Origin: Ferroacidibacillus organovorans
GTDB lineage: Bacteria > Bacillota > Bacilli > Alicyclobacillales > SLC66
DNA length: 64,000 nt
NCBI RefSeq assembly: GCF_001642725.1
Contig: NZ_LSUQ01000007.1
Span: forward strand, 1 to 64,000
Reading direction: 5' to 3'
Within the stretch, counting starts at the first letter, position 1, and each line of letters opens with the position of its first letter. Under the pieces are notes generated by a model. That model did not search any database. It saw only the letters and a list, made by a program, of their open reading frames with translations, and was not told the origin of the DNA. Position numbers and translations under genes: made by a program. Shown here one piece after another: positions 24,155 to 35,453 of the stretch.

Positions 24155-24217
24155 AAATAGCATAGAGTGGTTCGTGAATCATGAATAAAAGACTTTTAGT
24201 GAAAAGGAGGCGGTGAA

Positions 24218-24382
24218 GTGTCTTGGGTCTACACAGGGAAACTCTACACCTCTGAGTTTCAGGCGGGTTGCCTCGCGACACGAATACGTGAAGAAGGATT
24301 TCACTACGCAAAACGAATGCCGCGCTACGTGTATGTGTACAAAACCAAGCGCGGTAAATATGGTGTGAAATTTCAGTGGTAA
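24218..24382 (+). CDS. Small basic protein, unknown function (54 aa); paralogue of the protein at 35286-35453
   Basis: I do not recognise the family. GTG 24218 follows AAAAGGAGG by seven bases. The sequence begins SWVYTGKLYTSEF and ends YKTKRGKYGVKFQW; the first and last thirds match the 55-residue protein encoded at 35286 (TWVYEARLYDSRS ... YRTRKGNFGVRYQ), so the two are paralogues. The protein is rich in aromatic and basic residues and has no membrane helix or signal peptide, suggesting a small beta-rich nucleic-acid- or partner-binding protein (inference). It lies between resE and a CoA-binding protein gene on the same strand. Confidence 0.75.
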   Translation: MSWVYTGKLYTSEFQAGCLATRIREEGFHYAKRMPRYVYVYKTKRGKYGVKFQW

Positions 24383-24395
24383 GGGAGGCGCTAGA

Positions 24396-24812
24396 ATGGA
24401 TGATGTGAAATGGAAATCACATTTTTCGACGATTCGAACCATTGCAGTGGTTGGTCTATCCGACAATCCAGATCGCGACAGCTATCGGGTGGCGTCATAC
24501 CTACTTCAGCAGGGGTACGAGATATTCCCTGTTAATCCTACCGTTTCTTCCGTTCTGTCTCGTAAAGCATACGCGTCATTGAGCGATATCCCTAAAAAAA
24601 TTGATCTCGTGGATGTTTTTCGTCGGGCAGACGCAGTTCCCGCGATCGTACATGAAGCGATTGCGATAGGAGTTACACGGATATGGCTCCAACTGGGTGT
24701 CGTGCATCAAGTAGCAGAAGCGTATGCGCGTGCGCATGGCGTCGAAATCATTTCTGATCATTGCATTAAAATTGAACATCATCGTATGATGCATTCATCA
24801 CCTTTTGCTTAA
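24396..24812 (+). CDS. CoA-binding domain protein (CoA_binding_2, YccU-like)
   Basis: A 138-residue stand-alone Rossmann-fold CoA-binding domain. Visible blocks are IAVVGLSDNPDRDSYRVASYL (the nucleotide-binding turn), YEIFPVNPT, DLVDVFRRAD and the conserved tail EIISDHCIKIEHHR. The role of these single-domain proteins is not settled; they bind CoA in structures and some are themselves CoA-modified. GGGAGG precedes the ATG by eight bases, 13 bases after the small gene upstream. Confidence 0.88.
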   Translation: MDDVKWKSHFSTIRTIAVVGLSDNPDRDSYRVASYLLQQGYEIFPVNPTVSSVLSRKAYASLSDIPKKIDLVDVFRRADAVPAIVHEAIAIGVTRIWLQLGVVHQVAEAYARAHGVEIISDHCIKIEHHRMMHSSPFA

Positions 24813-24861
24813 ACCGCTGAAAGTAGACTAGAGAACTCAAAAAGAGTGGAGAGTATGCATC

Positions 24862-25674
24862 ATGTTAACGGATTATCATACCCATACAGAACGCGGGCCT
24901 TATACAGTTTCCTGGCTGGAAAAGTTTCTTGATGTAGCCAAAACACGTGGTATTCAAGAGTATGGTGTATCTGAACACGGTTATCGTTTTCATCAAACGG
25001 CGCATTTGTTTGACAATCCCTGGACGCGTGAGCGGCGAACGGAAGATTTGGACGAGTACATGGAGATGGTGATGGCGGCGCGAAGAGCCGGGCATCAGGT
25101 AAAGTTTGGATTAGAACTGGATTATATTCCTGGCACTGAAGATGCACTCGCTGCATTTATTCAATCATATCCATTTGACTATGTGATTGGTTCTGTGCAT
25201 TGGCTCGACGATTTTGGTTTTGATCTGCTTGAAATGAAACAACGTTGGGAAAACTGCGATCTGAAAGAAACCTATAATACGTATTTCAATATCTTGACGC
25301 GTATGGTCAAAACCGAGTTGTTTGATTTTGTAGGACACGCAGACGTCATTAAGGTGTTCGGTTACGAACCTGACGACATCGCATTTTTGGATGACTGGTA
25401 TAAACGTTTGGCTGAAACATTTTCAAAACATCATGCAGTGGTGGAGATTTCAACGGCAGGATTGCGCAAACCAGTCGGTAAACTATATCCCGCTCCGGGT
25501 TTGCTCCACGCATGTTTTCAGGCGAATGTACCTATTTTAATCAATTCAGACGCCCACAGACCGGAGGATGTAGGCGCCGACTATGATCGGGCCATCGCAT
25601 TTGCAAGACAGACGGGTTATCAAGAGCTGGTGACGTTTTCAAAGAGACAGAGAACCATGGCCACATTAGGGTAA
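24862..25674 (+). CDS. hisK: PHP-family histidinol-phosphatase
   Basis: Polymerase-and-histidinol-phosphatase superfamily enzyme, likely cleaving histidinol phosphate in histidine synthesis. Metal ligands appear in DYHTHTE (residues 4-9), VSEHGY, FGLELDY, GSVHWLDD, FVGHADVIK and INSDAHRPEDVG. 270 residues is standard. No other his gene is nearby, so a different phosphoester substrate is possible. An intrinsic terminator follows, shared with the convergent regulator. Confidence 0.85.
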   Translation: MLTDYHTHTERGPYTVSWLEKFLDVAKTRGIQEYGVSEHGYRFHQTAHLFDNPWTRERRTEDLDEYMEMVMAARRAGHQVKFGLELDYIPGTEDALAAFIQSYPFDYVIGSVHWLDDFGFDLLEMKQRWENCDLKETYNTYFNILTRMVKTELFDFVGHADVIKVFGYEPDDIAFLDDWYKRLAETFSKHHAVVEISTAGLRKPVGKLYPAPGLLHACFQANVPILINSDAHRPEDVGADYDRAIAFARQTGYQELVTFSKRQRTMATLG

Positions 25675-25690
25675 TGTTTTTTAACAAGAG

Positions 25691-25722
25691 GGCAGACCTT
25701 TCGCAAAGATTGGTCTGCCTTT
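25691..25722. terminator. Bidirectional terminator between the PHP gene and the XRE gene
   Basis: GGCAGACC (25691-25698), 13-base loop, GGTCTGCC (25712-25719), then TTT on the + strand; the - strand reading is followed by CTCTTGTT. Confidence 0.75.
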
Positions 25723-25729
25723 CTCTATC

Positions 25730-26146
25730 TTAAATTTCAATATCTGTAAAATTCTTGAGACGCTTTCTTTGGGCCATAATTTCGATCATCGCACAAATCA
25801 TATTATAATCGGTTTCGTCGAGTCGGCTGACGCGATGGGCCATGGCAAGATACGGTTGTGCACTCTCACGTGTAATGAACGATTGCAAATAGCCTGGCAT
25901 ATCGACGATACCCTGATAACTCTCGGCGTCAGGTAGTGTTGAAACTTCTGCGTTATCTGCAAAATAACCGACGGGAACACCGAGTGCTTCGGCAATGCGG
26001 ATCGCATACTCGAGAGAAGGTTGTCTCTCGCCACGTTCAATGGAAGAGATATGCGGTGTTGAGATTCCAGTACGGTAAGCAATTTCTTGTTGCGTGAGTG
26101 CTCGCTTATGGCGCAGCAAGCGAATTTTGTACCCCAATTTTTCCAA
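25730..26146 (-). CDS. XRE-family transcriptional regulator
   Basis: Likely repressor with a Cro/CI helix-turn-helix in the first 65 residues (IRLLRHKRALTQQEIAYRTGISTPHISSIERGERQPSLEYAIRIAEALGV, quoted here in outline only by its start LRHKRALTQQE and its end RIAEALGV) and a ~70-residue C-terminal part of unknown ligand. TTG 26146 is preferred because TTAGGAG lies eight bases upstream. The gene is divergent from acetoacetyl-CoA synthetase across an AT-rich gap, so it may regulate that gene (inference). Confidence 0.82.
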   Translation of the reverse strand: MEKLGYKIRLLRHKRALTQQEIAYRTGISTPHISSIERGERQPSLEYAIRIAEALGVPVGYFADNAEVSTLPDAESYQGIVDMPGYLQSFITRESAQPYLAMAHRVSRLDETDYNMICAMIEIMAQRKRLKNFTDIEI

Positions 26147-26200
26147 ATCTATCACTCCTAATCCTAGAGGATGTATGTTCATGAGTAAACTATATTCCAC

Positions 26201-26345
26201 ATATGTGTAAGTTGCAACATAAAGTTAGTTAAAAATATTATAATATAGAGTATAAGCATGCATAGAATCTTAATGAATCTATATTTACTTTAGAATTTGA
26301 TCAGATATGAAAATGCCCTTGGCATTCCATTGAAAACGCTTTACA
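26201..26345. promoter_or_regulatory. AT-rich divergent intergenic region with a cre-like site
   Basis: The gap between the XRE gene and acetoacetyl-CoA synthetase is distinctly AT-rich and contains TATAAT-like runs, an inverted repeat AATGCC-CTT-GGCATT (26312-26326), and TTGAAAACGCTTTACA (26330-26345). The last resembles a CcpA cre box with one extra base. Functions are inferred only. Confidence 0.35.
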
Positions 26346-26386
26346 ATTTCACTTGAGAAGATGTGGCATCGCGGGGGGCGACACGG

Positions 26387-28381
26387 GTGGAAAAGGTAAT
26401 AGAAGGTACGCCAATGTATGAAGCGAGTCAGTATGAGAAAGATCAATCTTTAATCTCTAATTATATGCAATGGTTGCAGCATACGCGCGGACTTCATTTC
26501 TCAGATTACGTTTCACTTCATGAATGGTCAGTTCAATCTCTGGAAGCGTTTTGGGATTCTATCGTTGACTATGCAGAAATCCAAATGAAGCGAAAATCGC
26601 TGTCGCCTTGTTTGAAGTCAAAAGAGATGCCAGGAGCGCAATTTTATCCAGATGCGACGATCAATTATGTGAATCAGGTTTTTCATCAACGAGATGAATC
26701 TTCAATCGCCGTATGGCATCAATCCGAAAATCGACCGCTGAATTCCTTGACCTACGGTGATTTAAAAATGCAGGTGGGCGCATTTGCATCTTATCTGAAG
26801 CAATGGGGTGTCAAAGAGGGAGATCGCGTTGCCGCTTACGCGCCAAACATCGCGGAAACGCTCGTGGCCTTCTTGGCGACGGCCAGCCTTGGAGCGATTT
26901 GGTCGAGTTGCTCCCCTGACTTTGGAACAGCAAGCGTGATGGATCGGTTTTCACAAATTGAACCGGTTGTTTTGATTGCAGTCGACGGGTATCGTTATCA
27001 GGGGAGGGACTATGACCGCCTGCAAATGGTGTCTTCTTTGCAAGAGCAACTGCCATCGTTAAAACTCACCATTCTTATTCCGTATCGATCAGAAACGGTT
27101 TCAGTCGATCACTTCCAAAAAAATACTGTTTCTTATCGTGAAGCGATTCGTCGCGCCGCGGCACTAGAACCTCTGCAGGTACCCTTCAATCACCCGCTGT
27201 GGATTCTTTACACCTCGGGCACGACCGGATTGCCGAAACCGATTGTCCAGAGTCACGGTGGGATCGTCCTTGAGCACGTCAAATCAATGAAGCTCCACGT
27301 CGATCTGCATCCCGGGAATCGTTTTTTTTGGTATTCAACGACAGGCTGGATGATGTGGAACTACTTGATCGGCGGATTGCTGGTTGGCGCTGAAATCATT
27401 CTCTATGACGGCAGCCCGGTTCATCCGCACCCCTATACATTATGGGAATTGGCTCAGAATACTTTAGTGACAGTTTTTGGCGCGAGCGCCGCCTATCTCG
27501 CAACGTGTAAAAAACAAGGGTTACGCCCAAGCGAGCATTATGATTTATCCTCATTGCGAATGATCGGATCGACGGGCTCACCGCTCACGCCTGATCTGTT
27601 CGTTTACGTGTATGACGCTGTCAAAAAAGATGTGATGGTGGTTTCTACGAGTGGCGGAACGGATGTGTGCACAGCGTTTGTCACAGGTTCGGTCCTTTTG
27701 CCGATCTGCGCAGGGGAGATCAGTTGTCGCGCGCTTGGCGCCGATATTCACGCCTTCAATGAAATGGGAGAATCGATCATCAATGAGGTCGGGGAGTTGG
27801 TCATTACTTCGCCAATGCCATCGATGCCGATTTCATTTTTTAAAGACCCTGAGTTCAAACGCTATAAAGAGAGCTATTTTGATCAATATCCAGGCGTGTG
27901 GCGACATGGAGACTGGATAAAGATCACAGAGCGCGGAAGCTGCGTTATCTATGGGCGCTCTGACTCAACGATCAACCGCAACGGAATTCGCATGGGAACA
28001 AGTGAACTTTACCAAGTCATCGAAGCGTTCGACGAAGTGGTCGATAGTTTGGTCATTGATCTAGAAATGTTAGGACGACCGTCCTTTTTAGCGCTCTTTC
28101 TTGTCTTGCGTCAAGGTAGTGCATTGACGGATCAACTAAAACTTCAGATACGTGAAAAATTAAAACGCGATGTGTCGCCGCGTCACGTACCTGATGAAAT
28201 GTACGTGATTCATGACGTGCCTCGCACGCTCAGCGGTAAAAAAATGGAGGTGCCTATTCGAAAAATTCTATTGGGTATGAATGGCACGAGCGCAGCAAAT
28301 CCGGATTCCATGGCGAATCCAAATTCCCTTCAGTACTTTTATGAGTTCGCAAAACGCATTGCAATTGAACACACTCCGTGA
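26387..28381 (+). CDS. Acetoacetyl-CoA synthetase
   Basis: Adenylate-forming enzyme that activates acetoacetate (acetoacetate-CoA ligase). The 664-residue ANL protein shows the family's N-terminal block (WSVQSLEAFWDSIVDY), the ATP-binding P-loop LYTSGTTGLPKPIV, STTGWMMWNY, and the C-terminal ATP-binding block GDWIKITERG with YGRSDSTINRNGIRMGTSEL and the catalytic lysine in RTLSGKKMEVP. The acetoacetate type is inferred from these blocks against acetyl-CoA synthetase. GTG 26387 follows GGGGGG; ATG 26414 is an alternative. It stands alone with a divergent XRE regulator. Confidence 0.88.
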   Translation: MEKVIEGTPMYEASQYEKDQSLISNYMQWLQHTRGLHFSDYVSLHEWSVQSLEAFWDSIVDYAEIQMKRKSLSPCLKSKEMPGAQFYPDATINYVNQVFHQRDESSIAVWHQSENRPLNSLTYGDLKMQVGAFASYLKQWGVKEGDRVAAYAPNIAETLVAFLATASLGAIWSSCSPDFGTASVMDRFSQIEPVVLIAVDGYRYQGRDYDRLQMVSSLQEQLPSLKLTILIPYRSETVSVDHFQKNTVSYREAIRRAAALEPLQVPFNHPLWILYTSGTTGLPKPIVQSHGGIVLEHVKSMKLHVDLHPGNRFFWYSTTGWMMWNYLIGGLLVGAEIILYDGSPVHPHPYTLWELAQNTLVTVFGASAAYLATCKKQGLRPSEHYDLSSLRMIGSTGSPLTPDLFVYVYDAVKKDVMVVSTSGGTDVCTAFVTGSVLLPICAGEISCRALGADIHAFNEMGESIINEVGELVITSPMPSMPISFFKDPEFKRYKESYFDQYPGVWRHGDWIKITERGSCVIYGRSDSTINRNGIRMGTSELYQVIEAFDEVVDSLVIDLEMLGRPSFLALFLVLRQGSALTDQLKLQIREKLKRDVSPRHVPDEMYVIHDVPRTLSGKKMEVPIRKILLGMNGTSAANPDSMANPNSLQYFYEFAKRIAIEHTP

Positions 28382-28402
28382 TGCGCCTGATGAGCATCAC
28401 GC
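28378..28402. terminator. Hairpin across the end of the acetoacetyl-CoA synthetase gene
   Basis: CGTGATGC-(9)-GCATCACG spans the stop codon, and a second stem AGAATGACG ... CGTCATTCT follows at 28415-28445. Neither has a T-run; they may help to end the two convergent transcripts. Confidence 0.35.
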
Positions 28403-28479
28403 ATTCGCAAAAGAATGACGCGCATAGACACAGCACGTCATTCTAGTGTTAATGTGTAAACCATCCTCTGTTCAATTCA

Positions 28480-30075
28480 TCAGGCAATTGGCAGTTCGAT
28501 ATAGGCGACCCGCTCCATGTCTGCCGCGTCGCGTATCGCCTGTACACTCTCATCAGAGACAGAGCGGTCGACGGCCATCAACATGAGCGCTTCTCCGCCT
28601 TCGATCGCACGCCCGACTTGCATCGATGCAATGTTAATCCCGGCGAGTCCGAGAACACTTCCCACGCGACCGATGATTCCAGGACGATCGCGATGCCAGG
28701 TCATAAGCATGGCAGAACTCGGCGTGATATCTACGGGATAATGATCGATCTGGATGATCCGCATACCGTGACCTTTGAGCACAGTACCAGCAACGGTTAC
28801 TTCTTCATTCGCGCCTGTCAGCGTGACACGGATGACATTGGTGTAACCTCCGTGGGGTGGAAGCTTCGTTTCCGTCACTTCAATACCCATCTCTTCTGCG
28901 ATGAGTGCCACACTGATGAGATGTACTTCCTCTCGGTAATAGCGGCTGAGAATGCCGCGAAGGGTGGAACGCGAGATCGGATCGGTCGCGTGTTGCGTTG
29001 GTTCTCCTTCGTATTGAATCGTTACGCGGTGTACCCCGCCACGAAACAACTGTGCCGCAAAACTTCCAAGCACTTCTCCTAAATTCGAAAAGGGCTCAAG
29101 GATTGCACGCTGTTCTGGCGCTAAACTGGGTAGGTTGACCGTGTGCGGATAGGAGCGCCCGTGAAGGAGGTCGACAACACCTTGCGCGACATCCACGGCG
29201 ACATTCACTTGCGCCTCTTCCGTCGATGCACCGAGGTGGGGCGTTGATATCACTTGCGGAAATGCCAAGAGGGGTTGGCCCACCGCTGGTTCTTGTTCGT
29301 AGACATCAAGTGCGGCACCCGCCACAATGCCTTGTTCAAGCGCACGCGCGAGCGCTCCCTCGTCGATGATGCCACCTCTCGCGCAATTCAGAATTCGCAC
29401 ACCAGGTTTCATCATGTGAAATTGTTCGTCGCTGATCAAATGGTGAGTCTCTTTGCTCAGTGGAGTGTGCACCGTTAGAAAATCAGCTGTACGTATCGCT
29501 TCTTCTAATGTGGCCGCTTTAATGCCCAATTTCTCAGCGCGCGTTGGTGTGAGGTATGGATCATACGCAGTGACGTGCATCCCGAAAGCTTGTGCGCGTT
29601 TTGCAACTTCCGCTCCGATTCTGCCGAGTCCAAGTATCGAGAGATGCTTTCCGCGAAGTTCGACACCGACAAAACGATTGCGATCCCAGACGCCATCCTT
29701 TAATTTAGCGTGCGCTTGCGGAATGTGGCGAGCAAGGGCGAGCATCATCGCAAATGTAAACTCTGCCGTCGTAATGGTGTTTCCATCCGGCGCGTTAATG
29801 ACAAGGACGCCCGCTTTGGTAGCAGCGCGCACATCAATGTTATCGACGCCAACACCTGCCCGTCCGATGACCTGGAGGTTGCTTCCTGCCTTGATGATCT
29901 CTTCTGTAACCTTTGTCTGGCTGCGCACCAGTAATGCGTCAAAGTCACCGATGATCTCCACCAGTTTTTCTTTGCTGACACCAATTTCTTGAACAATCTC
30001 TAGATCGCTTGCGGCATACAATTGCGCCAGCCCCTGTTCGGAGAGTGGGTCAGTTACGAGAATGCGAAACGACAT
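28480..30075 (-). CDS. serA: D-3-phosphoglycerate dehydrogenase
   Basis: First enzyme of serine synthesis, NAD-dependent. Catalytic-lid and Rossmann domains occupy residues ~1-315: VIGRAGVGVDNIDV, NAPDGNTITTAEFTFAMML, nucleotide-binding LGLGRIGAEVAKRA, NCARGGIIDEGAL and the active-site STPHLGASTEEAQ. Then an allosteric substrate-binding domain, and a C-terminal ACT domain (MLMTWHRDRPGIIGRVGSVL, residues ~455-531) for serine feedback. ATG 30075 follows AAAGGGG. Expression is controlled by the T-box leader immediately upstream. Confidence 0.96.
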   Translation of the reverse strand: MSFRILVTDPLSEQGLAQLYAASDLEIVQEIGVSKEKLVEIIGDFDALLVRSQTKVTEEIIKAGSNLQVIGRAGVGVDNIDVRAATKAGVLVINAPDGNTITTAEFTFAMMLALARHIPQAHAKLKDGVWDRNRFVGVELRGKHLSILGLGRIGAEVAKRAQAFGMHVTAYDPYLTPTRAEKLGIKAATLEEAIRTADFLTVHTPLSKETHHLISDEQFHMMKPGVRILNCARGGIIDEGALARALEQGIVAGAALDVYEQEPAVGQPLLAFPQVISTPHLGASTEEAQVNVAVDVAQGVVDLLHGRSYPHTVNLPSLAPEQRAILEPFSNLGEVLGSFAAQLFRGGVHRVTIQYEGEPTQHATDPISRSTLRGILSRYYREEVHLISVALIAEEMGIEVTETKLPPHGGYTNVIRVTLTGANEEVTVAGTVLKGHGMRIIQIDHYPVDITPSSAMLMTWHRDRPGIIGRVGSVLGLAGINIASMQVGRAIEGGEALMLMAVDRSVSDESVQAIRDAADMERVAYIELPIA

Positions 30076-30121
30076 CTGAAAATCCCCTTTCTTTCTGATG
30101 ATAAAGGCGTAAAAGAATCTC

Positions 30122-30397
30122 AAAACAAAGCAAAACTCGCCCCTGCGCAATTGCGAGGGGCGAGTTTCAACCCGCGGTGCCACCCTGATTCCCATGAAAT
30201 TCATGGCTTGTTACGACGTGTGTCGTACCACCGATAACGCGGTGTGCGGAACCAGTTTGGATACACGGGGCATCCTTACCTGGTCACTCCGGAGGGCTAC
30301 CTCCACGGACGTTCACTGACTTGCACCAGCCGTCAGCTCTCTGAGAACAAAACCGTGGATTCATTTCCATCGACGTTTTAGGTTTGTGATTTTTGTG
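30122..30397 (-). ncRNA. T-box riboswitch leader of serA
   Basis: The leader senses uncharged tRNA and allows read-through only when the cognate amino acid is short. The universal T-box motif AGGGTGGCACCGCGG lies at 30172-30186, followed by the terminator. Stem I features are present: a K-turn-like GATGGAAATGA, AGAGAGC and the apical GGCTGGTGCAAG. A serine specifier is expected from the gene; a TCC triplet at 30307-30309 beside the lower stem is a candidate, but I could not fix the specifier with certainty. Confidence 0.92.
30131..30165 (-). terminator. T-box terminator hairpin
   Basis: ACTCGCCCCT (30156-30165) and AGGGGCGAGT (30135-30144) form a ten-pair GC-rich stem followed by TTTGCTTTG on the - strand. 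The T-box motif just upstream would pair with its 5' arm in the antiterminator state. Confidence 0.9.
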
Positions 30398-30427
30398 AGA
30401 ATACTACACCTTGGGATGAAACGTCAA
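30398..30427 (-). promoter_or_regulatory. Sigma-A promoter of the serA leader
   Basis: TTGACG (30422-30427) and TATTCT (30398-30403) with an 18-bp spacer; five and four consensus matches. It lies directly before the T-box stem I. Confidence 0.55.
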
Positions 30428-30500
30428 GCCTTCGAAGAATTCCCGGTAAAATTGACACAATTTAGAGGCTCTCTACGGAGGCGCAAAAGGAGTCACTCCA

Positions 30501-31181
30501 ATGGAATACAACGTTCGCCACGTTCAGGATTTCCTTAAAAAAGCAACGCGAATTCTTGCCATTACAGGAGCCGGCATCAGTCGCGCGAGCGGACTGCCTG
30601 TGATGTCGAGTGAGTTTTATGGCATCCGACTCGAACATTTGTTTAGCCTTGAGCACGCCCAACGTCACCAAAATGAGTTTGAACGATATTATCGTAAAAT
30701 GACAACAGAATTTTTACACGCAGAACCTAACGCGGCACATCGCACACTTGCCCGCCACGGTGTTCATGTCATCACGCAGAACATTGATGGACTCGATCGT
30801 CGCGCAGGAAACAAAAACGTCATCGAACTGCACGGCAACCTTCACGCGGTCCGTTGCAGAACGTGCGGATACCGTTTGCCTGTCTTTCAAATGACAGCAA
30901 GTACTTGGCAGTGCATGCGATGTCACGGCGCATTGTGGCCAGATGTCGTTCTCGAGGGGGAAGCCGTTTACGATCTTTGGAAAGCGGTTTGCCTCGCTTC
31001 GACGTGCAGTGCTGCATTAGTCGTTGGAACACGACTGGAAATGTCTCCCCTCGTCAAACTGCTGGCCATTCTACGCAGTCGACACGTTCCGATTTGGCAG
31101 ATCAACGAAACGGCAGAACAGCTCGTGCCTATCCTTTTTCAGGCGAGAGAATTGGACGATGAGTGCGTTACGTTGGTGTAA
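30501..31181 (+). CDS. NAD-dependent protein deacylase, sirtuin
   Basis: Removes acyl groups from lysine side chains with consumption of NAD. The 226-residue protein has the sirtuin motifs in order: ITGAGISRASGLPV (residues 21-34), the catalytic QNIDGLD and ELHGNL (catalytic histidine), a zinc ribbon CRTCGY ... CMRCHG, and VVGTRLEMSPL plus WQINET for NAD ribose contacts. It is divergent from serA. The 3' end overlaps the convergent hypothetical gene by 14 bases. It may act on acetylated CoA ligases such as the acetoacetyl-CoA synthetase 2 kb away (inference). Confidence 0.92.
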   Translation: MEYNVRHVQDFLKKATRILAITGAGISRASGLPVMSSEFYGIRLEHLFSLEHAQRHQNEFERYYRKMTTEFLHAEPNAAHRTLARHGVHVITQNIDGLDRRAGNKNVIELHGNLHAVRCRTCGYRLPVFQMTASTWQCMRCHGALWPDVVLEGEAVYDLWKAVCLASTCSAALVVGTRLEMSPLVKLLAILRSRHVPIWQINETAEQLVPILFQARELDDECVTLV

Positions 31182-31473
31182 CACCTGTTTGCAGTGTGAT
31201 TTTTTCAAGCACTCTTTCTGCAAAGTCAAAAGGCGTATCGGTGTCTCGGACCTCTTCTCGCATCAAAATTTCGACACATCCGTCAAACGCTGCTTTGGCG
31301 GATTCATACCCGGTAAATGTGAATGTGCCAGTCTCAAAGGCTTCCTCGGGGTCGTACACATACATCACATATCCTGCATCAGTTTCGTGAAGGTCAATGT
31401 CAAATGTTCTTAACTCGCCTTCAATCGATTTTGAAAGTACCGTGCGTTCAAGGAGGGTGCGGGCATTTCTCAC
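31168..31473 (-). CDS. Hypothetical acidic protein (101 aa)
   Basis: Not recognised. The product contains SIEGELRTFDIDLHETDAG, YDPEEAFETGTFTFTGY and a helical tail, with no cysteines at the termini, membrane segments or repeats; it looks like a small soluble alpha/beta protein. GTG 31473 follows GGAGTGA by seven bases. It is convergent with the sirtuin gene (14-base overlap) and divergent from pepA. Confidence 0.6.
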   Translation of the reverse strand: MRNARTLLERTVLSKSIEGELRTFDIDLHETDAGYVMYVYDPEEAFETGTFTFTGYESAKAAFDGCVEILMREEVRDTDTPFDFAERVLEKITLQTGVTPT

Positions 31474-31599
31474 AGTCGTTCACTCCGGAGTTTGACTTTT
31501 GTAATGAAGTGGAAATGAATTGCTCATTTCTCCACACCTTGAAGTATACTATACCTAGGGCATGTACAGCGCGGGAAACGCGAGAGGGAGTCAGCCAAG

Positions 31600-33009
31600 T
31601 TGAATATTCACCTATCGGGGCACAGCGCACAGCCAGCGGCCTGCCATATCGAACTGATTCATACAAATTCCTTTTCATCTTTATCAGCTCGCGGCGTCGC
31701 GAAACGTCACAGCACACGCCACAACATCTCCTTATTTCACGAACGTGATGCATCGCTGATCACCGTTGGGCTTGGCGATCCTTCAACGGTGGATGAAGAA
31801 ACGCTGCGCGATGCCGCAGGACTGGCGATTCGCGCGGCTGCCAAAGAAGAGTGGGAAGATGTGTCGATCGGACTACCCCATCTCTTGGAGGCAGAGCGGG
31901 AGATCCATTGTCTGGTCGAAGGGGTGGCGCTTGGCGCGTATCGTTTTGACCGTTACCAATCCAAGAAAGACACGCACCTCGTAAAAACAGTGACGCTAAT
32001 GGCGGATGAACGTCATGTTGCAACGCTTGCGCGCGCGCTCGCCTTTGTGCGGGGAACGATGCTTGCGCGCGATTTGGTCAATGAACCACCCAATCGCCTG
32101 CGACCGGCTACCTTAGCCGAGTTTGTCACACATCATTTCAGAGGAAGCAAAGCGGAAGTCACAGTACTAGCTGGCCAGCAACTGATCGATCAGCAGATGA
32201 ACGGTCTGATCGCAGTCGGAAAAGGGAGTGAATACCCCCCGCGATTTATTCAAGTCACCTATGCAACCGACCCCACGCGACCGCTGATTGCGCTCGTAGG
32301 AAAAGGCGTGACCTTTGATACAGGAGGAATTTCGCTCAAAGGGGGGCGAGACATCTCCAATATGCGAATGGATATGGGCGGGGCAGGCGCCGTGATTGGC
32401 GCGCTTGATATTCTCATCCAGCTTGATCTACCGTGCAATGTTGTCGGATTGATCGCGGCGACGGAAAACATACCTGACGCGGGCTCGATGCTTCCGGGTG
32501 AATTGATTCAATATCGAAACGGCACATCTGTTCAAGTCGCAAATACGGATGCAGAGGGGCGACTTATTTTGGCGGACGCGCTCATCCGTGCACAAGAATT
32601 ACATGCGAGTGAAGTGCTCGATATTGCAACGCTCACAGGATCTGCGGCGGCTGCGCTGGGCTCGCGCTATGCGGCAGTCTTTGGCGGCGACGACATCGTT
32701 TCAGGCGTAAAAGAGGCAGGGCTTCGGTCTGGCGATTATGTTTGGCAAATGCCTCTCCCGGAGAGTTATCGCGAGCAATTGAAGAGCGTTTATGCAGATC
32801 TTTCGAACATTGGTAAAGGGCAGGGTGGAGCGATTGTCGCGGCACTGTTTCTAAAGCAATTTGTCGCAGACGATCAAGCGTGGGCACATATCGACATGGC
32901 GGGCCCGATGGAGTCAGAAAAAACAGCCGGATATCGTCCACATGGAGCGACAGGCTATGGCGCCAGATTGCTTGCAGAGTACGTGTTAAAGCGAGTTGGG
33001 CATGCTTAA
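31600..33009 (+). CDS. pepA: Leucyl aminopeptidase (M17)
   Basis: Cytosolic di-metal aminopeptidase that releases N-terminal residues from peptides. The 469-residue protein has the N-terminal variable domain and the M17 catalytic domain: VGKGVTFDTGGISLKG (metal lysine and aspartate), MDMGGAGAVIGAL and the family signature NTDAEGRLILADAL near residue 318, then ATLTGSAAAALG. TTG 31600 follows GAGGGAG. Length and motifs are complete. Confidence 0.94.
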   Translation: MNIHLSGHSAQPAACHIELIHTNSFSSLSARGVAKRHSTRHNISLFHERDASLITVGLGDPSTVDEETLRDAAGLAIRAAAKEEWEDVSIGLPHLLEAEREIHCLVEGVALGAYRFDRYQSKKDTHLVKTVTLMADERHVATLARALAFVRGTMLARDLVNEPPNRLRPATLAEFVTHHFRGSKAEVTVLAGQQLIDQQMNGLIAVGKGSEYPPRFIQVTYATDPTRPLIALVGKGVTFDTGGISLKGGRDISNMRMDMGGAGAVIGALDILIQLDLPCNVVGLIAATENIPDAGSMLPGELIQYRNGTSVQVANTDAEGRLILADALIRAQELHASEVLDIATLTGSAAAALGSRYAAVFGGDDIVSGVKEAGLRSGDYVWQMPLPESYREQLKSVYADLSNIGKGQGGAIVAALFLKQFVADDQAWAHIDMAGPMESEKTAGYRPHGATGYGARLLAEYVLKRVGHA

Positions 33010-33205
33010 AACACGTGTCTCGAAGCGTCAGACATCCAAGAATCGTTTCTTCTGAGAAATAATTCCCAGAGCGATGATTTACGTGCCCCAAGAGTCGTGA
33101 TATCTTGTATACTGATCAGAGAGCGCGAAACAACAGTGCTTTGCATGAGTTTACGTTTTCAAATCCGGTTGGTTTACCAAGGAAACGTATCCTCGTGGTT
33201 CGGAA

Positions 33206-33244
33206 CGCGAAACGGACATGACCTTACGGCATGTCCGTTTCGCG
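33206..33244. repeat. 15-bp perfect inverted repeat upstream of the 33276 gene
   Basis: CGCGAAACGGACATG (33206-33220), nine-base loop, CATGTCCGTTTCGCG (33230-33244); an A-T pair outside makes it 16. No T-run follows. It ends about 15 bases before the ribosome binding site of the next gene. The rest of the 266-base gap holds a smaller inverted repeat TTGGT-TT-ACCAA and a TATACT hexamer. Confidence 0.8.
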
Positions 33245-33275
33245 TAGGAATTTTGCGTTGAAAGAGGAGAGAGCG

Positions 33276-33635
33276 ATGAAATACGGTCTGATTCTTGACC
33301 CGAGTCGAAAAGCAAAGCCAGCCAAACAACTCTTTGAGTGGGTAAAAAAACTCAATCCCGAATCGCAGTTAAAAGACGTCGTCGTCATGGATTTCCCTGT
33401 CATCGCAGGCTTTGAGATTCCATTGCTTGAGCGCAATCGCGTTCTTTCGCTCGCTTTGCAGGATGAACATATGAGTCCATACTTCAAAACGGATATGAAC
33501 CTCTTTCAGCTTCTGATGATGGATGAGTCGATTGCCATGAACATTTATCGCACAACAGATGGAACGCTTTTCCTTTTTGAAGGTTTGCCAGATGTACCTC
33601 AACCTTTTGGCGCGCACGGTCACGATCTTCGATAG
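33276..33635 (+). CDS. Hypothetical protein (119 aa)
   Basis: Not recognised. ATG 33276 follows GAGGAGAG by six bases. The product begins MKYGLILDPSRKAKPAKQL and contains a central VVVMDFPVIAGFEIP and LFQLLMMDESIAMNIYR; it looks soluble, with no transmembrane segment. It is preceded by a long inverted repeat. The 3' end overlaps the convergent prsW gene by 16 bases. Confidence 0.65.
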   Translation: MKYGLILDPSRKAKPAKQLFEWVKKLNPESQLKDVVVMDFPVIAGFEIPLLERNRVLSLALQDEHMSPYFKTDMNLFQLLMMDESIAMNIYRTTDGTLFLFEGLPDVPQPFGAHGHDLR

Positions 33636-34285
33636 TGAAGCTCGCGTTGTTTCTCAATCCGCAGTTCGTGCATCGCGTACGCCACAATGACCATGAGGTA
33701 AAAAGCGAGCGCTAGGTTCCAAACGTAGCCCTGCGACATGGCGAACGCATCGTAAAATCCATGCAAAAGCGCGGGGATGGCAAAAGCAGGCCAGCGACTT
33801 GCGCCAAAGAAACGTGCGCGCGCAAAACGTGAGCCCATGATGACTGCAAACACTGCGTGCGCGGGGACTGCCGTAAAAGCGCGGACAAACGCGGTGTCAA
33901 TTCCAGAACTCGTGACATAGAGCACGTTTTCAACGGCAGCGAAGCCGAGGCCAATCGCACCTGCATACACAATTCCGTCATACGGTTCCTCAAAAAAGGG
34001 TTTGCGGTCGACAAGGCGCAAAAAACAGAGCGCTTTTAGTCCTTCTTCGACGACTCCGGCCACAAAAAAAGCGGAGATCATTGTATAAATGAACCCTTGT
34101 TGTGGATCAGGCGTCAGACTGTACAGATCGAGAAGGGTGCGTTCTGCGATTCCGGCAGGCAAGACGACGACCGCACCGACAAGAAAAAATCGAAAGACAA
34201 GCCCCGGCGGTTCGCGGTGTCGATCCAAGCGATAAAGAATAAAGAGAAATGCGAGCGCTGGCAATAATCCTGCGATGACCAACAA
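33620..34285 (-). CDS. prsW: PrsW-family intramembrane metalloprotease
   Basis: Multi-pass membrane protease. In Bacillus subtilis PrsW makes the site-1 cut in anti-sigma RsiW. The 221-residue product has about seven hydrophobic segments and the family motifs VVEEGLKAL (EExxK), FAAVENVLY (FxxxE), VPAHAVFAVIMG and LLHGFYD for metal binding. TTG 34285 follows AAGGAGTGA. The Bacillus neighbours (gudB, sleB, ypeB, ypfA) occur later in the window, so this is a rearranged version of that block. The substrate here is unknown. Confidence 0.88.
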   Translation of the reverse strand: MLVIAGLLPALAFLFILYRLDRHREPPGLVFRFFLVGAVVVLPAGIAERTLLDLYSLTPDPQQGFIYTMISAFFVAGVVEEGLKALCFLRLVDRKPFFEEPYDGIVYAGAIGLGFAAVENVLYVTSSGIDTAFVRAFTAVPAHAVFAVIMGSRFARARFFGASRWPAFAIPALLHGFYDAFAMSQGYVWNLALAFYLMVIVAYAMHELRIEKQRELHYRRS

Positions 34286-34368
34286 CGTGGATCACTCCTT
34301 TGACGTAGTATGCTTCATTCACGGCTGACCATTTCGTAGCTCATAAAATTTGTGAAGGGGCGGTTTAA

Positions 34369-35160
34369 ATGAATGGTTACATCAAACAACTGAACCACAG
34401 CGTAAACGACGATGAGGTTCAGTATTCCTTGCAATTAGGAGAAGAGACTGCGTCGGTCAACGCTTGGATTGGTCGCCGCATCCACATTCGATTTTTGGGA
34501 GAGCGGCACTGTATTGCGTGTGGGCGCGCCGTAAAGAAACTGTTTCAAAACGGGTATTGCTTCCCATGTGTCACTACACTTGCTGAAACGGATTTGTGCA
34601 TTGTAAAACCGCATCAATGCCATTTTGCTCAGGGGACGTGCCGAGATGAGTCATTCGCGCAGACGCATTGTATGATTCCGCACACGGTGTATCTCTCCTT
34701 GAGCAGCCAAGCAAAAGTAGGAATCACGCGAATGGGACGCGAACTGCAGAGATGGGTTGATCAGGGCGCTGTTCAGGCGGTTGCGATTGCGCGAACACCG
34801 ACGCGAATGCGTTCAGGAGAAATGGAAGTCGAAATTGCACAGAATATGCCTGACAAGACAGACTGGAGAAAAATGGTCAGAGGGGTTCATGAAGAGGTTG
34901 ATCTTTTGCAATTGGCAGAGAAGGTAGCAGGGAATGTGTCGGAATCGTTTCAGTCTTATCTCTTAGATCAACATGTATTAAAGCGGTTTAACTACCCTGT
35001 CTTACCTGATGTAACCATCAAGGCGGTCTCTAAGAACATTGAAAAAGAAGAGGTAACATCCGATCTCATCGGCGTACGTGGGCAATACCTTCTTTTTAGT
35101 GACGGTGTTTTGAATGTCAAAAAATTCGCCGGTTACCACGTAGCGCTTGATGTATCATAA
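34369..35160 (+). CDS. DUF2797 family protein
   Basis: Function unknown. The 263-residue protein has the family's N-terminal cysteine cluster (CIACGRAVKKLFQNGYCFPC, near residues 45-65, then PHQCHF and GTCRDE), probably metal binding, followed by a middle part that starts HTVYLSLSSQAKVGITR, which resembles a GIY-YIG-type nuclease region. Catalytic competence cannot be judged from sequence alone. It stands alone on this strand. Confidence 0.75.
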   Translation: MNGYIKQLNHSVNDDEVQYSLQLGEETASVNAWIGRRIHIRFLGERHCIACGRAVKKLFQNGYCFPCVTTLAETDLCIVKPHQCHFAQGTCRDESFAQTHCMIPHTVYLSLSSQAKVGITRMGRELQRWVDQGAVQAVAIARTPTRMRSGEMEVEIAQNMPDKTDWRKMVRGVHEEVDLLQLAEKVAGNVSESFQSYLLDQHVLKRFNYPVLPDVTIKAVSKNIEKEEVTSDLIGVRGQYLLFSDGVLNVKKFAGYHVALDVS

Positions 35161-35285
35161 CGCCACTATAAAGTGATTCTCCAAATAAAGCGGCAAAGAG
35201 CATTTTTTACTCTGTGATACATGAGCTCACACCTTAAGGGTACGCTATCCCTAAGAGTAAAATGGATCGTGTGAGGAGGGTGCGC

Positions 35286-35453
35286 ATGACGTGGGTATAT
35301 GAGGCACGGCTTTATGATTCGCGATCCGTGGCGAATTACGTGGCGATGTGCGTGCGTGATGATCAGGTTTTACGAGGATATCGCAAACCTTTAGTGCAAA
35401 TTTATCGGACGAGAAAGGGGAACTTTGGTGTTCGCTACCAACCTCTGGCTTGA
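35286..35453 (+). CDS. Small basic protein (55 aa); paralogue of the protein at 24218-24382
   Basis: Unrecognised family. ATG 35286 follows GAGGAGGG by five bases. The protein begins TWVYEARLYDSRS and ends YRTRKGNFGVRYQPLA, matching the 54-residue protein at 24218 in both end regions. Positions W, V, Y, L, Y, S and the C-terminal Y-[KR]-T-[KR]-[KR]-G-x-[FY]-G-V-[KR]-[FY]-Q are shared. A hairpin (TTAAGGG/CCCTAAG) lies upstream. Role unknown. Confidence 0.75.
   Translation: MTWVYEARLYDSRSVANYVAMCVRDDQVLRGYRKPLVQIYRTRKGNFGVRYQPLA

Follow-up and report, generated by a model that had tools for sequence, protein, structure and literature searches.

Two very short open reading frames in the 64,000-nucleotide stretch of Ferroacidibacillus organovorans DNA analysed here (the window) raise the question of whether they are genuine, related genes and, if so, to what family they belong and what their products might do. 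Both ORFs are located where a preliminary description had placed them, each behind a good ribosome-binding site that can be read directly in the sequence (Table 1). As described, the two proteins share W-V-Y, LY-x-S and the C-terminal motif Y-[KR]-T-[KR]-[KR]-G-x-[FY]-G-V-[KR]-[FY]-Q, and their proposed paralogy is upheld by BLASTP comparison of the pair, which yields an end-to-end alignment with 34% identity (E = 5e-11), as well as by the orthologous groups of paralogs described below. A search of the whole genome with protein A alone retrieved B (E = 5e-6) along with C, a third copy (E = 1.5e-9) that is encoded beside clpP in another contig; the possibility, raised at the outset, that no third homolog exists thus does not hold, and there are matches in hundreds of genomes. 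Genes A, B and C are under strong purifying selection: the nucleotide changes that separate the window genome from its nearest relative are mostly in third codon positions, and the NG86 dN/dS values against this sister genome are 0.022, 0.029 and 0.015, respectively, so that these are real, constrained genes. An in-frame ATG upstream of B would add 8 residues (63 in total); the start given in Table 1 is favoured because of the position of the Shine-Dalgarno sequence.

Table 1. Location of the features discussed in the text, in window coordinates; the names of neighbouring genes and of the genes between A and B are our own reading of the translations.
Feature	Position	Strand	Remarks
Shine-Dalgarno sequence of gene A	24203..24210	+	AAAGGAGG
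Gene A	24218..24382	+	54 residues, GTG start; group A; lies immediately downstream of resE
Small XRE-type regulator gene	25730..26200	-	between A and B
Sir2-like deacetylase gene	30501..31181	+	between A and B
PrsW-like membrane protease gene	33620..34285	-	forms a divergent pair with the DUF2797-like gene that precedes B
Candidate forespore-type promoter of B	35219..35247	+	ACATG (35219-35223), N17, TACGCTA (35241-35247); weak, 8/11 consensus positions
In-frame ATG upstream of B	35262	+	alternative start
Shine-Dalgarno sequence of gene B	35274..35279	+	AGGAGG
Gene B	35286..35453	+	55 residues, ATG start; group B; flanked by DUF2797-like and DUF1450-like genes

Homologs were detected in all 41 genomes sampled from the genus, family and order of the window genome, most of which carry two or three copies. 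The sequences together with the gene order define three orthologous groups with fixed neighbours, each of them monophyletic (support 0.92-0.96). Group A directly follows resE; group B follows the DUF2797-like gene and is found near a DUF1450-like or CbiX/SirB-like gene; and group C adjoins clpP and, in the loci that were read, comes after an isochorismatase-like gene, all these neighbours being named from our reading of the translations. In many genomes, the A and B loci are about 3.5-12 kb apart. Genes similar to the Sir2-like and XRE-type genes of the window also lie between A and B in two other loci (L042 and L044), which have a similar divergent PrsW-like/DUF2797-like pair as well. In other families of Bacilli, there is a fourth type, D, usually present in a single copy and located mostly after a pgpA-like gene or, in one large family (f5), after a gene for a solute-binding protein. 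Across 126 members, the residues W3, Y5, L9, A16, G46, [YF]48, G49, V50 and [KR]51 (A numbering) are invariant or nearly so. A shared function could not be derived from the gene neighbours, which differ between the groups. An origin from phages or other mobile elements was rejected as well: there is no match in phages or viral contigs. One match comes from a Paenibacillus megaplasmid.

The preliminary description recognised no known family, and this assessment stands: neither A nor B has a match in Pfam, NCBIfam or PHROGs, and a sequence search of the PDB returned nothing significant. When the members were scanned one by one, only scattered weak matches appeared, for example, to KA1, GH98C and BetR. 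The hits to the KA1 profile (PF02149) were weak and inconsistent: 5 of 41 members gave hits, with a best E-value of 0.0013, as did 4 of 46 members of a broader set, with a best E-value of 0.035. No description of the family was found in the open-access literature that was searched. The family is, then, unlisted in the standard libraries covered by these searches, and undescribed.

Structure prediction bears out the suggestion that these proteins, with their conserved ends, form a small folded domain. The AlphaFold models of A and B both have a beta-alpha-beta-beta arrangement, with mean pLDDT values of 84.0 and 83.8 and pTM values of 0.61 and 0.62, the two predictions being not fully independent because the underlying alignments overlap. 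The fold searches produced no significant match, the best Foldseek E-values being 1.2 (PDB) and 0.07 (BFVD) and the VIA Z-scores not exceeding 5.4; CutA1, S6, RRM-like and designed proteins were considered as fold relatives and rejected, all of them appearing at similar Z-scores. CutA1 and other ferredoxin-like folds share the common beta-alpha-beta-beta packing (Z about 4) but are about twice the size, show no sequence relation and tie in Z with unrelated proteins. Judging from the alternation of residues along the strands, rather than from coordinates, W3, Y5, G49 and K/R51 are expected on the face of the sheet that points away from the helix, forming an exposed aromatic and basic patch.

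The distribution of the family links it to sporulation. A broad profile matched 120 of the 299 genomes of the class at E <= 0.1, and the 117 strong matches, from which the marginal ones (G069, G075 and G097) were excluded, all fall among the 211 class genomes that are positive for SpoIVA, a protein of spore formation (lists compared by eye). The two sets of genomes coincide in the Paenibacillus-like family f5, which, as inferred from a Paenibacillus record, would correspond to Paenibacillaceae: every one of the 134 SpoIVA-positive genomes has the gene (counting G765, where it is apparently frameshifted), compared with none of the 14 SpoIVA-negative ones, which are to be taken as one loss event because all belong to a single genus. 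Within this family, G765 is the only SpoIVA-positive genome with a gene split over two frames (G765:C1:3016233-3016390; a frameshift or a sequencing error), and the SpoIVA-negative G783 has just a match at E = 0.0055 with internal stops. Some 90 SpoIVA-positive genomes of the class lack the family, including families that are presumably Bacillus-like, so the gene is accessory rather than generally needed for sporulation; a broader profile (A3) aimed at divergent members in such genomes gave marginal matches only (G069, E = 0.083; G075, 0.008; G097, 0.016). No match was obtained outside the class in a sample of 398 genomes of the phylum. Among the genomes of an overlapping sample of 329, 277 are SpoIVA-positive and just nine of these are listed as the same class, so that, as judged within the phylum sample, the family looks specific to Bacilli.

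The regions upstream of the genes point in the same direction for three of the four types. We scored the 130 upstream bases for GHATR-N17/18-CATNHTA (maximum 11), the forespore sigma-G consensus, with the SASP genes of related genomes as the positive control and 418 other genes and shuffled D regions for comparison. One published account gives the sigma-G consensus only as a figure (PMC5942855), and in C. difficile there is overlap between the consensus sites of sigma-F and sigma-G (PMC7438776). Scores of at least 10 were reached by 33% of the SASP genes, 27% of the D genes (14/52), 2.9% of the other genes (12/418) and 1.4% of the shuffled D regions; an exact CATACTA precedes 45% of the C genes versus 1.4% of the controls, and 78% of the B genes (n = 9) score at least 9 versus 23% of the controls, all these percentages overstating the evidence somewhat because related sequences are not independent. 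The A upstream regions are no different from the controls, without enrichment of the motif. Thus, B, C and D look forespore-regulated, with sigma-G/F-like motifs that resemble those of the SASP genes, and A probably shares transcription with its neighbours. In the window, the candidate promoter of B is weak (Table 1); the sister genome (L051) has a similar site. Many C genes match the -35 half of the sigma-G consensus poorly. In the C genes of family f2 (e.g., L043, L047, L049, L054 and L065), where this half is poor too, a second conserved element, approximately TT[GC]CC, precedes CATACTA by some 29 bases, a position at which a sigma-G -35 box would not be expected.

We propose, with a probability of roughly 60%, that these proteins of about 54 residues are a family of forespore-expressed, folded binding proteins of the spore core in endospore-forming Bacilli. 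Under this scenario, sigma-G or sigma-F would drive the transcription of B, C and D in the forespore, and A would more likely be co-read with its neighbours, either resE or a CoA-binding gene. The products would stay in the spore core because nearly all of the 54 residues are folded, leaving no room for a signal peptide. There, they may act as small binding proteins via the side of the three-stranded sheet that the helix leaves open, with the invariant W3 and Y5 and the nearly invariant G49 and K/R51 as the putative binding residues; an exposed aromatic and basic patch of this kind appears fit for binding, which is why we prefer this reading. As for the ligand, we would put nucleic acid first and a protein partner second. 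The leading mechanism, offered here only tentatively, is that the proteins bind DNA or RNA in dormant spores, with the paralogs dividing targets or timing among themselves. The PDB, Foldseek and VIA searches yielded no fold or sequence match in support of nucleic-acid binding, and the low net charge of C (+3) counts against it; the designation of the proteins as basic, apt for A and B (mean net charge of about +6 and +5), is accordingly less fitting for C.

A possible rather than probable reading is that the proteins are spore-linked adaptors, in which the same sheet face binds and modulates a protein partner, such as an enzyme, a protease or a sigma-factor partner present in the forespore, or another copy of the protein itself. 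The small size, the conserved candidates for the exposed face and the division into paralogous groups would suit this role, as would the invariable adjacency of C to clpP and of A to resE in the genomes that were read; however, the neighbours vary by group (resE, DUF2797, clpP, pgpA, solute-binding protein) and so do not suggest a common partner. Less plausible still, and in our estimate unlikely, are general vegetative proteins that match sporulation by shared ancestry only, having been inherited in lineages that happen to sporulate. The family is indeed patchy by lineage, the clean loss in f5 involves a single genus, and A shows no enrichment of the forespore-type promoter motif, but such an explanation leaves unaccounted for both the motif enrichment that B, C and D show at a level comparable to the SASP genes and the lack of any strong match in a SpoIVA-negative genome of the class sample.

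A very improbable alternative is that the family consists of degenerate SPOR-like domains (PF05036) that bind peptidoglycan. The order of the elements is that of the N-terminal beta-alpha-beta-beta part of SPOR; the SPOR domain of RlpA is the nearest natural structure to the model of B (Z = 5.4 over 48 residues), and that of CwlC appears among the structures listed for both models. These Z-scores, 5.4 to 6i05 and 4.1-4.2 to 1x60, tie, however, with those of unrelated folds and are in the range of common arrangements. Furthermore, no member matches the Pfam SPOR profile, and comparison by hhalign with 11 SPOR domains from related genomes was not significant (probability 0.4%, E = 0.14). SPOR domains repeat beta-alpha-beta twice over about 70 residues, whereas the 54 residues here make up beta-alpha-beta-beta only, with neither the second alpha-beta unit nor an export signal or membrane segment. 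Finally, chance or non-coding ORFs that merely look alike, for which nothing but the short length speaks, are refuted by the similarity of the pair, the matches across many families and in every genome of the order, and the confinement of nearly all changes to third codon positions.

Returning to spore-core binding proteins as the preferred reading, a close term of comparison is the alpha/beta-type SASP (PF00269), which are likewise small, are encoded by several paralogous genes per genome in spore-forming Bacilli and, in the same genomes, share the same type of sigma-G-like promoter with B, C and D as a group, though not with A, as far as the motif goes. The two families are unrelated in sequence: no member matches the SASP profile at E-values up to 5 or 10, whereas the same profile does detect SASP genes in these genomes. 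The new family is predicted to adopt a stable beta-alpha-beta-beta fold, in contrast to free SASP, which are mostly unfolded. It is a more doubtful, broader suggestion that these proteins make up a hitherto overlooked class in the core of dormant spores, folded, binding nucleic acids or ribosomes and comprising as many as three specialised paralogs, which a considerable fraction of the spore-forming Bacilli would use but which is absent from the lineages to which the main laboratory models belong. Spore biology has been built largely on Bacillus subtilis, and the family would represent a spore component that this model may not show. The genes hint at an aspect of spore biology that is missing from the standard family libraries. 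They offer knock-out and structural studies a small and convenient target, and with a profile, annotation pipelines could name a family that is now listed as hypothetical.

The expectation that genes of this size are easily missed by gene calling is borne out in part only, as a plasmid-borne Paenibacillus member is annotated, if only as a hypothetical protein (WP_174812428.1). The D gene of Paenibacillus cellulosilyticus (L112:7995-8159), which is carried by a 509-kb plasmid, lies behind an ABC-transporter operon that includes a solute-binding protein, a locus that resembles the chromosomal loci L092 and L093.
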